From contig JAICEW010000008.1 of assembly GCA_025923995.1 (NCBI GenBank), positions 1-45,168 on the forward strand: DNA of 45,168 nucleotides, written 5' to 3'. The stretch comes from Vicinamibacteria bacterium. Its GTDB lineage: Bacteria > Acidobacteriota > Vicinamibacteria > Fen-336. A program made the position numbers and the translations under genes. Within the stretch, counting starts at the first letter, position 1, and every line of letters starts with the position of its first letter. This document shows positions 12,957 to 16,658 of the stretch, piece by piece. Below the pieces are notes generated by a model. That model ran no database searches, was not told where the DNA came from, and saw only the letters and a program-made list of their open reading frames with translations.

Positions 12957-12986
12957 TTGACCCGCCCGGCGAGCGGCCGTTATCCT
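12957..12986 (+). promoter_or_regulatory. Promoter for the zinc-ribbon/aldolase pair
   Basis: A -35 TTGACC (12957-12962) and a -10 TATCCT (12981-12986) are 18 bases apart. The predicted start falls only a few bases before the ATG at 12996, so the message would have almost no leader. Confidence 0.5.
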
Positions 12987-12995
12987 GAAACGGTC

Positions 12996-13256
12996 ATGGC
13001 CGGTGTCGCGCTCCTCATCCGCATCCTGGCCGTCCTGCTGCTGGCACGCCTGGCCTTCCGCTTCGTGGCCAACGTGATCAAGGGGCTGCGCGAGCCCGAG
13101 CCGCCGGCAGCGCCCGCCCCGCTCGTGCGGGACCGCATCTGCAACACCTTCCTGCCGCGCGACCGCGCCCTCGAGGCGGTGGTGACGGGGAGGCGCGAGC
13201 ACTTCTGCTCCGCCGCCTGCCGCGACCAGGCCCTCGCACTCGCGGCCGCGCGATGA
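12996..13256 (+). CDS. Small membrane protein with degenerate zinc-ribbon (PP0621-like)
   Basis: 86 residues: an N-terminal hydrophobic helix (about 5-25, VALLIRILAVLLLARLAF), a short proline-rich linker, then a cysteine segment ICNTFLP ... HFCSAACRD. The pattern resembles PP0621-type and MYM-like treble-clef modules, in which a C-x2-C or CG-x-Y-x-P knuckle is followed by FCSxxC. Here the first knuckle has only one cysteine (CNTF), so the metal site may be incomplete. The ATG at 12996 is chosen because the residues before it are charged and the promoter leaves no room for them. The stop overlaps the aldolase start by 4 bases (ATGA), so the two are translated together. Function unknown. Confidence 0.65.
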   Translation: MAGVALLIRILAVLLLARLAFRFVANVIKGLREPEPPAAPAPLVRDRICNTFLPRDRALEAVVTGRREHFCSAACRDQALALAAAR

Positions 13257-13906
13257 CGGACGAAGCCCGGCTGAGGGCCGACATCGCGGAGGTCGGCCGC
13301 CGCCTCTATGCGCGCGGCCTGGTGGCCGGGGCCGAGGGCAACGTGTCGGTGCGCCTGGGCGAGCGCCTGCTCATGACGCCCGCCGGCGTGTGCAAGGGAT
13401 ACCTGACGGCCGAGCAGATCGTCGCCACCGACCTCGCGGGCCGTCCCGAGAACGGCCGGCCCTCGACGGAGGCGCCCATGCACACCGCGGTCTACCGTCA
13501 GCGGTCCGACGTCTCCGCGGTGGTGCACGCCCACCCGCCCACCGCGACCGGCTGCGCGGTGGCCGGCGTGCGGCTCGACGAGCCCTACCTGGCGGAGGCG
13601 GTGGCCACGCTGGGCAGCGTCTGCATCGTGCCCTACCGCCCGCCCGGCTCGGCGGAGCTGGCGGCGTCGGTGGCGGACGCGGTGGCCGAGGCCGAGACCA
13701 TCCTGCTCGCCCACCACGGCGCGCTGACGGTGGGCACCGACGTCTTCCGGGCCTGGGAGCGCATGGAGACGCTCGAGCACGTCGCGCGCGTGCGCCTGGT
13801 CGTGCGCCTGCTGGGCGGCGGCGCTCCACCGCTGCCAGCGGACGAGGTGGAGCGCCTGATCGCGCAGGGCGTCGCGGCCGGCTACCTGCCGGACCGCTCG
13901 AACTGA
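13253..13906 (+). CDS. Class II sugar-phosphate aldolase (L-fuculose-1-phosphate aldolase type)
   Basis: Zinc-dependent aldolase of the AraD/FucA family, 217 residues, close to FucA length. It would cleave a deoxysugar 1-phosphate such as fuculose- or rhamnulose-1-phosphate to dihydroxyacetone phosphate and an aldehyde (lactaldehyde). Zinc ligands H92 and H94 lie in VVHAHPP and H155 in LLAHHGAL; the catalytic acid E73 lies in STEAPMH. The N-terminal GNVSVRL and TPAGVCKGYL motifs are also typical. It lies directly before microcompartment shell genes. In planctomycete/verrucomicrobial-type microcompartments such an aldolase feeds lactaldehyde into the compartment, so the context supports a metabolosome role. 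The exact sugar is not shown, and no aldehyde dehydrogenase or kinase is nearby. Confidence 0.88.
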   Translation: MTDEARLRADIAEVGRRLYARGLVAGAEGNVSVRLGERLLMTPAGVCKGYLTAEQIVATDLAGRPENGRPSTEAPMHTAVYRQRSDVSAVVHAHPPTATGCAVAGVRLDEPYLAEAVATLGSVCIVPYRPPGSAELAASVADAVAEAETILLAHHGALTVGTDVFRAWERMETLEHVARVRLVVRLLGGGAPPLPADEVERLIAQGVAAGYLPDRSN

Positions 13907-13981: not shown

Positions 13982-14266
13982 ATGGGTGAAGCGCTCGGGA
14001 TGATCGAGACGCGCGGGCTGGTGGCCATGATCGAGGCCGCGGACGCCATGGTGAAGGCGGCGAAGGTCACGCTGGTCGGCTACGAGAAGATCGGCTCGGG
14101 CTACGTGACCGCCCTGGTGCGCGGCGACGTGGCCGCGGTCAAGGCCGCGACCGACGCCGGCGCGGCGGCCGCCCGGCGCGTGGGCGAGCTGGTGTCGGTG
14201 CACGTGATCCCGCGCCCCCACGGCAACCTCGAGGACGTGCTGCCCATCGGCAAGGCCTCCAAGTAG
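13982..14266 (+). CDS. Bacterial microcompartment hexameric shell protein (BMC-H)
   Basis: Single BMC domain (Pfam00936 type), 94 residues, expected to form the hexagonal tiles of a protein shell. The characteristic sequence runs from [20 protein letters not shown] through the pore-side KIGSG motif to [13 protein letters not shown]. The C-terminal extension is very short ([11 protein letters not shown]), as in typical facet proteins. The ATG at 13982 has GGAGG five to six bases upstream. It is the only BMC-H in the window; no tandem-domain BMC-T is present, so further shell genes probably lie elsewhere in the genome or are not needed. Confidence 0.95.
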
Positions 14267-14307: not shown

Positions 14308-14577
14308 ATGATCCTCGGGCGCGTGGTGGGAACCGTGGTGGCGACCCGGAAGGACGAGCGCCTTCTGGGCGCGAAGCTGCTGGTCGTGCGCACCGTGGAC
14401 CCGCGCGGCAAGGACGAGGCCGGCTACACCGTGGCCATCGACACCGTCGACGCCGGCAACAACGAGCGGGTGCTGGTCGTGACCGGCTCCTCCGCGCGCA
14501 TGGCCGCAGGTCTCAAGGACTGCCCCGTGGACGCGGCCATCGTGGGCGTGGTGGACTCGGTCGAGGTGCAGGACTAG
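14308..14577 (+). CDS. Microcompartment pentameric vertex protein 1 (EutN/CcmL, BMC-P)
   Basis: 89-residue EutN/CcmL-fold protein expected to form pentamers that cap shell vertices. It begins MILGRVVGTVVATRKDERL, continues GAKLLVVRTVD and VAIDTVDAGNNERVLVVTGSSAR, and ends AAIVGVVDSVEVQD, all family hallmarks. The GSSAR segment is well kept in this copy but is changed in the other two, so this may be the standard form. No clear ribosome site precedes the ATG at 14308; a GC-rich 41-base gap follows the BMC-H stop. Its TAG stop shares one base with the next start. Confidence 0.93.
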   Translation: MILGRVVGTVVATRKDERLLGAKLLVVRTVDPRGKDEAGYTVAIDTVDAGNNERVLVVTGSSARMAAGLKDCPVDAAIVGVVDSVEVQD

Positions 14578-14852
14578 TGCACCTCGCGCGCGTCATCGGC
14601 ACCGTGGTGGCGTCGCGCAAGGACGAGGGGCTCACCGGCATGAAGCTCCTGATCGTCCAGCCGCTCACGCCCGACCGCGCGGCCGCCGGCAAGCCGCTCG
14701 TCGCCCTCGACTCGGTGGGCGCGGGCACCGGCGAGGACGTGTTCTACGTGCGCGGCCGCGAGGCGTCGTTCCCGTTCCTGCCCGCCGACGTCCCCGCCGA
14801 TGCCGCCATCGTGGGCATCGTGGACCACTGGCACGTGGAGAAGACGCGGTGA
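14577..14852 (+). CDS. Microcompartment pentameric vertex protein 2 (EutN/CcmL, BMC-P)
   Basis: 91 residues from a GTG that overlaps the previous stop by one base (TAGTG), so translation is coupled. The family pattern is clear: ARVIGTVVASRKDEGLTGMKLLIVQPL, then VALDSVGAGTGEDVFYVRGREAS and AAIVGIVDHWHVEK. The GSSAR motif of copy 1 reads RGREAS here and the C-terminus is more basic (HVEKTR). The three tandem pentamer genes differ from one another throughout, so they are old paralogues. Confidence 0.92.
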   Translation: MHLARVIGTVVASRKDEGLTGMKLLIVQPLTPDRAAAGKPLVALDSVGAGTGEDVFYVRGREASFPFLPADVPADAAIVGIVDHWHVEKTR

Positions 14853-15118
14853 CGCTCGGCCGCGTGGTCGGCAACGTCGTGTCCACGCAGAAGAACGAGA
14901 AGCTGGAGGGGGCCAAGCTGCTGCTGGTGCAGCCGCTCGACCTCTCCCTCCAGGCCAGGGGCGCGCCGGTCATGGCCGTCGACGGCGTCGATGCCGGGAT
15001 CGGCGACCTGATACTCTTGATCCAGGACGGCCGCTCGGCGCAGCTGGTGCTCGGCAAGGGAGCCGCCGCGGTGGACGCGGCAGTGATCGGCGTGGTCGAC
15101 GCGGTGGAGATGGCCTGA
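14849..15118 (+). CDS. Microcompartment pentameric vertex protein 3 (EutN/CcmL, BMC-P)
   Basis: 89 residues from a GTG that overlaps the stop of copy 2 (GTGA). It reads TLGRVVGNVVSTQKNEKLEGAKLLLVQPLD, then MAVDGVDAGIGDLILLIQDGRSA and AAVIGVVDAVEMA. Like copy 2 it has lost the GSSAR motif (QDGRSA). Three pentamer genes with one hexamer gene is the ratio seen in several planctomycete, acidobacterial and myxobacterial loci. Each may occupy vertices under different conditions or recruit different cargo; this is inference. Confidence 0.92.
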   Translation: MTLGRVVGNVVSTQKNEKLEGAKLLLVQPLDLSLQARGAPVMAVDGVDAGIGDLILLIQDGRSAQLVLGKGAAAVDAAVIGVVDAVEMA

Positions 15119-15121
15119 GAG

Positions 15122-15403
15122 ATGGACGACGCGCGCATCCGCGACCTGACGAACGAGGTGCTGGCTGCGCTCGACCGCTCGCCCGACGCGCGCGCCTCGC
15201 AGTCGCTGGAAGCGCGCGTGGCGGCACTGGAGGCGGCGGTGGCGCGGCTCGCCGCTCCGGCGGCCGCCGCGCCGTCCGCGGCTCCGCGCGGACACGTCAG
15301 CCTCACGGTCCTGGACGTGCCCTCGGCCGGGGGCGACCGCTGCGTGCTGGAGCCCGACCGTCCCTGCACCAACAGCGGCACCTGCCGCACGTTCGGCCAC
15401 TAG
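15122..15403 (+). CDS. Unrecognised 93-residue protein with encapsulation-peptide-like N-terminus and Cys-rich tail
   Basis: I do not recognise this family. Three parts are visible. Residues 1-19 (MDDARIRDLTNEVLAALDR) form an amphipathic helix of the kind that directs enzymes into microcompartments; known peptides share the pattern acidic-I-x-x-h-h-x-x-V-L. Residues 28-43 (SLEARVAALEAAVARL) form a second heptad-like helix that could oligomerise. An Ala/Pro linker then leads to a short strand and a tail with three cysteines (DRCVLEPDRPC, then SGTC) and a final Thr-Phe-Gly-His. The cysteines could bind a metal or form a redox site. The ATG at 15122 is 3 bases after the vertex gene stop, so it belongs to the shell operon. 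Cargo, scaffold or electron-transfer subunit are all possible. Confidence 0.7.
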   Translation: MDDARIRDLTNEVLAALDRSPDARASQSLEARVAALEAAVARLAAPAAAAPSAAPRGHVSLTVLDVPSAGGDRCVLEPDRPCTNSGTCRTFGH

Positions 15404-15446: not shown

Positions 15447-16658
15447 GTGACTCCCCGCTCGATCCTCCACGTCGACATGGACGCGTTCTACGCCGCGGTC
15501 GAGCAGCGCGACCGCCCGGAGCTGCGCGGCAAGCCCGTCATCGTGGGGGCCGATCCCAAGGGAGGACGGGGCCGGGGCGTGGTGGCGACCGCGTCCTACG
15601 AGGCGCGCGCGTTCGGAGTGCGCAGCGCGTTGCCCATCTCGCAGGCGTGGAAGCTGTGCCCGCAGGGCGTGTACCTGCCGCCGGACATGGAGAAGTACGC
15701 GCGCGTCTCGGATCAGGTGATGGAGATCCTCCACGGCTTCACCGACCTGGTGGAGCCGCTCTCGATCGACGAGGCGTTCCTGGACGTCACCGCCAGCCGC
15801 CGCGCGCTCGGGGACGGCGTCACCATCGCGCGCAACCTCAAGGAGCGGATCCGCCGCGAGACCTCGCTCACGGCCTCGGTCGGGCTGGCGGCGTCCAAGC
15901 TCGTGGCCAAGGTCGCTTCGGACATGCGCAAGCCGGACGGCCTGGTGGTGGTGGAGCCGGGCACCGAGGCGGACTTCCTGGCCCCGCTGCCCGTGCGCCG
16001 GCTGTGGGGCGTGGGACCCAGGACGGAGGAGTCGCTGGCGTGCCTGGGCGTGCGCACGATCGGGGACCTGGCCGCGCTGGCCGAGGACAGGCTGGACCGC
16101 AAGCTGGGCACGCACGGGCAGGACCTGCTGGACCTGGCCCGCGGGCTGGACGACCGGCCGGTGGTGGCCTCGGCGGACGAGGCCAAGAGCGTGGGACACG
16201 AGCACACCTTCTCGATCGATACCGCCAGCGCGGACGTGCTGCGCCGGACGCTGCTGGCCCTGTGCGATCAGGTGGCGCGGCGGCTGCGGAACCACGGCCT
16301 GCGCGCGCGCACCGTCACGCTCAAGTACCGGGACGAGACGTTCCGCACGCTGACCCGCGCGCGCACCACGCCCGACTCGACCAACGCCGGCGACGCACTC
16401 TTCGCGGTGGTCTGGGAGCTGTTCCAGGGCGTGCACGGCCCGCGGCGCGTGCGCCTGCTCGGGGTCTCGGCGTCGGGGTTCGGCGAGACCGGACACCAGG
16501 CCGGCCTGTTCGCCCAGGGCGTGAGGCCGGCGGACCGGTTGCGGGACCAGATCACCGAGCGGTTCGGCGAGGGCGCGCTGGTGCGCGCGAGCGTCCTCGA
16601 TCCGGGCGGTGCCGACGACCCATCGGACCGCCGCGGCTCGCGCCGGCTGCTGCGCTAG
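15447..16658 (+). CDS. dinB: DNA polymerase IV (Y family, DinB)
   Basis: Error-prone translesion polymerase, 403 residues. The palm carries D10 in HVDMDAFYAAVE and the pair D108/E109 in SIDEAFLDVT, which hold the two catalytic metals; the FY of DAFYA is the steric gate. The helix-hairpin-helix region (RRLWGVGPRTEESLACLGVRTIGDL) and the little-finger domain follow. A QAGLF near residue 355 resembles a sliding-clamp binding motif, placed before a short charged tail (DDPSDRRGSRRLLR). GTG start, with a -10 box 7 bases upstream. The gene ends in a 4-base overlap with a convergent gene. No LexA box was recognised. Confidence 0.95.
   Translation: MTPRSILHVDMDAFYAAVEQRDRPELRGKPVIVGADPKGGRGRGVVATASYEARAFGVRSALPISQAWKLCPQGVYLPPDMEKYARVSDQVMEILHGFTDLVEPLSIDEAFLDVTASRRALGDGVTIARNLKERIRRETSLTASVGLAASKLVAKVASDMRKPDGLVVVEPGTEADFLAPLPVRRLWGVGPRTEESLACLGVRTIGDLAALAEDRLDRKLGTHGQDLLDLARGLDDRPVVASADEAKSVGHEHTFSIDTASADVLRRTLLALCDQVARRLRNHGLRARTVTLKYRDETFRTLTRARTTPDSTNAGDALFAVVWELFQGVHGPRRVRLLGVSASGFGETGHQAGLFAQGVRPADRLRDQITERFGEGALVRASVLDPGGADDPSDRRGSRRLLR

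Follow-up and report, generated by a model that had tools for sequence, protein, structure and literature searches.

A conserved small protein with an encapsulation-peptide-like helix and a cysteine tail is encoded beside microcompartment vertex genes in Acidobacteriota

Introduction

The ACI type of bacterial microcompartment (BMC) comprises a class II aldolase, a BMC-H shell protein, a triplet of BMC-P proteins, a satellite aldehyde dehydrogenase and a number of proteins whose function is unknown (Sutter et al. 2021, PMC8217296). Such compartments are frequent among Acidobacteriota, and a function for them has so far only been proposed. In better described compartments some proteins carry cysteine-rich appendages, such as the tetracysteine C-terminal extension of PduK (PMC6325248), and cargo enzymes are brought to the shell by short terminal encapsulation peptides (EPs).

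Here we describe a protein encoded in a stretch of 45,168 nucleotides of Vicinamibacteria DNA, the whole of which is referred to as the window. Its 93 residues place it in a conserved, previously unnamed family that lies beside BMC shell genes across Acidobacteriota. A conserved BMC-linked protein with a putative targeting helix and an invariant cysteine head would offer an easy handle on ACI assembly or metal handling.

An ACI-type operon and its final gene

The window operon matches the ACI microcompartment type, with departures. The ACI core is present, all on the forward strand: a class II aldolase gene (13253-13906), a BMC-H gene (13982-14266, with its ATG at 13982) and three BMC-P (EutN/CcmL) genes (14308-14577, 14577-14852 and 14849-15118). 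The satellite aldehyde dehydrogenase is present in the same genome on contig C61 (locus L124, 9360-11267), where a BMC-H gene precedes one for an acylating acetaldehyde dehydrogenase-like protein that scores 613.6 bits against TIGR02518, just under the cut-off. The departures concern the aldolase and a second enzyme. The C-terminal EP of the ACI aldolase is missing in the window, where the protein ends at 13906, and a terminal helix is present in the relatives whose aldolase C-terminus can be read; the 75 bases ahead of the BMC-H start are too few to encode the missing peptide. The hydroxyacid dehydrogenase of ACI-type loci is also missing from the window operon, and in about 50 relatives a 2-hydroxyacid-dehydrogenase-like gene lies downstream, adjoining the small open reading frame (ORF) described below.

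Two further observations concern the surroundings of the shell genes. Upstream of the aldolase lies a gene for a small cysteine-containing protein (12957-13256, forward strand) with a C-x(n)-HFCS-x2-C pattern and sub-threshold matches to zf-FCS/DUF7576, and a similar protein with the same cysteine pattern (DPVCG...HFFCSERC) occupies the corresponding position in about 42 related loci. A lone tandem-BMC gene (BMC-T, PduT-like; locus L125, 9740-10306, contig C67 of the same genome) lies beside a transketolase-like gene.

The final gene of the operon is a small ORF (15122-15403, forward strand) which, as the initial annotation had noted, starts 3 bases after the third BMC-P gene, that gene ending at 15118. 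The 93-residue product, MDDARIRDLTNEVLAALDRS...DRCVLEPDRPCTNSGTCRTFGH, consists of an EP-like helix, a linker, a coil, a second linker, an H-x-S block and a cysteine tail; the next ORF starts at 15447 and is DNA polymerase IV-like, judging its sequence by eye. The small ORF is a real gene, above chance, because the same operon position recurs, because the tail pattern is found once per positive genome, and because its GC content by codon position (0.78/0.61/0.92) is similar to that of the neighbouring genes. In an AlphaFold2 model helices span residues 3-18 and 29-44, with mean pLDDT values of about 92 for the first ten residues and about 87 for residues 31-40, and the remainder is helix-poor. 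A Foldseek search with this model returned zero matches.

A family linked to vertex genes

The family has been missed by the annotation libraries that we searched: no model in Pfam or NCBIfam covers the 93-residue protein, in line with the initial annotation, to which no described family of this build was known, and 66 family members were also run against Pfam. The candidate DUF7311 (Pfam) was set aside, its match having an E-value of 0.0046, below the cut-off, in only one of the 66 members, and being put down to composition. Homologues were first detected within the window's own class, and were then found in 66 of 396 genomes sampled across Acidobacteriota. A scan of named genomes yielded 61 loci, nearly all labelled Acidobacteria or Vicinamibacterales, and the few labelled otherwise probably carry wrong names (Acidimicrobiia, Cyanobacteria MAGs). 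A mixed alignment of homologues has no stretch conserved enough for scanning, and a narrower four-cysteine alignment was usable. Plasmid sequences searched for the family gave no match, and neither did a collection of genome contigs when scanned with a single protein as query.

The initial annotation had named homologues outside BMC loci with a different function as evidence that would speak against its reading, and the homologues prove to be linked to BMC loci. With BMC-P presence scored by PF03319 in the same 396 genomes, BMC-P is present in 65 of the 66 family-positive genomes. The lone exception (G273), which is also the single family-positive genome among the 232 that lack BMC-P, is a contig-edge fragment, the match lying at base 104. 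Within the window's class the family occurs in 41 of the 44 genomes with BMC-P. The small gene lies directly 3' of BMC-P in 136 of 142 fetched loci, some of which overlap one another, and in 58 of 59 named loci; the six exceptions among the 142 are four contig-edge copies and two relocations in one genus. We note that of these relocated homologues (L132, 3890-4231, and L138) the L132 copy follows a pdxJ-like gene. Genome G026 has an otherwise similar operon (locus L148, around 5600): aldolase, BMC-H and the BMC-P triplet are all there, but the small gene is absent and a hydroxyacid-dehydrogenase-like gene lies directly after BMC-P, suggesting that the protein is not always needed.

Alignment of 66 sequences resolves the protein into three conserved blocks with variable Ala/Pro linkers between them, the first being the N-terminal helix, the second an H-x-S-H/L motif (HVSL in the window protein, residues 58-61, 15293-15304) and the third the cysteine tail. 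The second, heptad helix that had been noticed between the first two blocks, with the suggestion that it could oligomerise, is indeed predicted in the window copy (residues 29-44, 15206-15253, LEARVAALEAAVARLA), but it is conserved in the window's bacterial family only and is lacking in most homologues, including most of the class. In six close homologues, for which synonymous change is high and GC-biased, pN/pS is about 1.06 and 0.79 in the linkers and lower, at 0.44-0.63, in the blocks (helix, coil, H-x-S and tail).

How the short form arose is a question raised by longer homologues from other classes. Between helix and tail these have a domain with remote likeness to the N-terminal part of TIGR02536 (eut_hyp), an ethanolamine-utilization family, so that the short form may have come about by reduction of a larger BMC protein. 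In its strongest form this explanation would have the protein as a shrunken TIGR02536 relative that kept helix and tail, lost the middle domain and has little function left. Homologue L142, from another class, matches the model over positions 5-158 (E 7e-10) and has a similar cysteine tail, as does L130 with a weak match (E 0.0026); yet the 38.9 bits of L142 are far from the curated cut-off of 152.6 bits, and the short form is kept class-wide with its blocks under purifying selection. We regard this degenerate origin as very improbable. The window protein, which is without the domain, gave no match to TIGR02536, and the AlphaFold model of L142, with a pLDDT of 48.7, is of too low quality for a comparison. 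As a separate observation, other ORFs in several genomes of the phylum, many of them 524-630 residues long and presumably aldehyde dehydrogenases, match TIGR02536 in its C-terminal part (about 150-206); TIGR02536 may be split between two proteins, its N-terminal part on the long cysteine-tailed homologue and its C-terminal part on these other ORFs.

The N-terminal helix

The EP-like helix (residues 1-18, 15122-15175) presents hydrophobic residues at I6, L9, V13, L14 and L17, and the family consensus of this block, about MTDDELRALVRDAIARH, has a register in common with the EP of E. coli EutC, MDQKQIEEIVRSVMASM. This is the pattern that had been proposed to target cargo, and a register test is passed by 70 of 98 family members; among control N-termini 30 of 1205 pass it, and among shuffled sequences 0.35%. 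The effect size is to be read with care since the test was designed post hoc with the sequences already seen. An arginine at position 11 is kept in 62 of the 70 register-passing members, the window copy having asparagine there; R11 matters in the EP of PduP (PMC12339742).

The helix is likewise similar to the EP that the aldolase of the same operon carries in relatives, with an ungapped score of 18.1 compared with 7.2 for shuffled sequences and 2.7 for other N-termini, and a profile built from the aldolase EPs left the window helix undetected (-1.2 bits). Because the hydrophobic moment of residues 3-20 (mean z 0.10) is not above that of shuffled sequences, support for an EP rests on the conserved register. 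The predicted helix at 3-18 together with the register test gives the terminal amphipathic helix of about 18 residues, with its hydrophobic face, that is expected of an EP, and the family has the flexible, poorly conserved linker that should follow it. An unconserved N-terminus, the second observation that had been named as adverse, is not what we find, the conservation being in a known EP register, and assignment of the helix as a putative encapsulation peptide is supported at the level of sequence.

The C-terminal cysteine tail

The tail (residues 74-93, 15341-15400, CVLEPDRPCTNSGTCRTFGH) contains C74, C82, C88 and a terminal H93, as first described, and fits the block 3 consensus C-x2-E-x4-C-x2-[C/S/H]-x2-C-x3-G-[H/Y/F]; C74, E77, C82, C88 and G92 are invariant in the 66 sequences. 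A DNA pattern for the tail has exactly one match in 23 of 40 genomes, and the reversed control pattern has none. Most homologues have four cysteines with the spacing C-x7-C-x2-C-x2-C, compared with three in the window copy. The third cysteine is kept in 82 of 98 members, the other 16 having Ser, Thr, Gly or His instead; the window's bacterial family has serine at this position and no obvious fourth cysteine. In two homologues the third cysteine is replaced by histidine, and two others that lack it gain an upstream cysteine, replacements that suggest a ligand site. Strict compensation of the lost cysteine by the terminal histidine was considered and rejected, as the copies without the third cysteine end in His (11), Tyr (3) or Phe (2).

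The best matches of the tail in the PDB are four medium-chain dehydrogenases (MDR), each aligned through the same CxxCxxC stretch with weak E-values (0.016-0.36). This stretch, which is the structural-zinc lobe of these enzymes, is the one database resemblance of the tail. The CxxCxxC part fits most homologues, but the full lobe, EPxxxCxxCxxC with a fourth cysteine in dehydrogenase spacing, is not reproduced: the window protein has serine at the middle cysteine and the fourth cysteine is out of register. With such weak E-values and a fourth ligand at a different place, the tail shows likeness to the MDR zinc lobe and not membership of it. This likeness, with its weak scores, makes a redox carrier less probable than a structural metal knuckle.

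The redox alternative deserves consideration nonetheless. By analogy with PduS/PduT or GrpU, the tail could hold an iron-sulfur cluster in the lumen and shuttle electrons from the NADH of the aldehyde dehydrogenase; the C-x7-C-x2-C-x2-C spacing fits a [4Fe-4S] site, for which three invariant cysteines would be enough, and accessory iron-sulfur proteins are known in BMCs (PMC6325248). The replacement of the third cysteine in those 16 of 98 members, the closest sequence likeness being to a zinc lobe, and the finding of no redox partner gene in the core operon all speak against it, and we think it decidedly unlikely. A little less unlikely is an adaptor without metal, in which an enzyme or the BMC-P vertex would recognise the tail as a linear motif, the cysteines lying at the interface or in disulfides. 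The motif is short, C-terminal and locked in position, the linkers are flexible and BMC-P is the constant neighbour, as such an adaptor would require. Three invariant cysteines and the apparent Cys/His replacement of a lost fourth nevertheless resemble metal ligation, and disulfides are unlikely with a reducing cytosol, an argument that covers the cytosol and leaves the lumen apart.

A proposed role

The reading we favour, which we hold tentatively at somewhat short of an even chance, is that the protein is a non-enzymatic, luminal, EP-anchored metal-knuckle adaptor or accessory of the ACI (aldolase) microcompartment. It is the most likely of the readings because a zinc-lobe-like tail and an EP-like helix are combined with no catalytic domain, and a targeting helix in front of a metal-type cysteine tail probably makes a small helper within the organelle. 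The amphipathic N-terminal helix would act as an EP, bringing the protein to the lumen and to the shell and/or co-condensing cargo, and would be followed by the flexible Ala/Pro linker and, in the window's bacterial family, by an oligomerising coiled coil. The C-terminal 20 residues would fold about a metal, zinc being the most likely, which the three invariant cysteines would hold together with a variable fourth ligand that is mostly cysteine and in some copies histidine or an upstream cysteine. This knuckle would be the working head of the protein and would most likely dock either an enzyme partner or a component of the shell, and the protein would serve as an adaptor or assembly factor.

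The initial interpretation as a whole is partly supported, and its idea of a metal centre, redox centre or scaffold has, on sequence grounds, been narrowed towards the adaptor just described. It is possible, if rather unlikely, that these proteins are BMC components of a new class, conserved throughout the phylum: mini-proteins anchored by an EP, with a zinc-type cysteine knuckle serving as a metal-dependent adaptor for the docking of cargo or of vertex proteins in ACI metabolosomes. If the favoured reading is true, this would be, to our knowledge, the first described EP-bearing metal-knuckle helper.

Comparison with known microcompartment proteins

The EPs of EutC and PduP resemble the family helix in being terminal, about 18 residues long, of the same hydrophobic register and followed by a poorly conserved linker, but they sit on enzymes, and the helix of the small protein is not attached to one. 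CcmN has a beta-helix domain, and we know of no cysteine tail on it; its EP is C-terminal, whereas the EP-like helix described here is N-terminal. The likeness to CcmN is one of arrangement, since it bridges core and shell of beta-carboxysomes through its EP (PMC12339742). PduK, PduT and GrpU have cysteine-based metal sites comparable with the predicted site in the tail, but these are BMC-domain shell proteins, and the small protein is without the BMC domain (PF00936).
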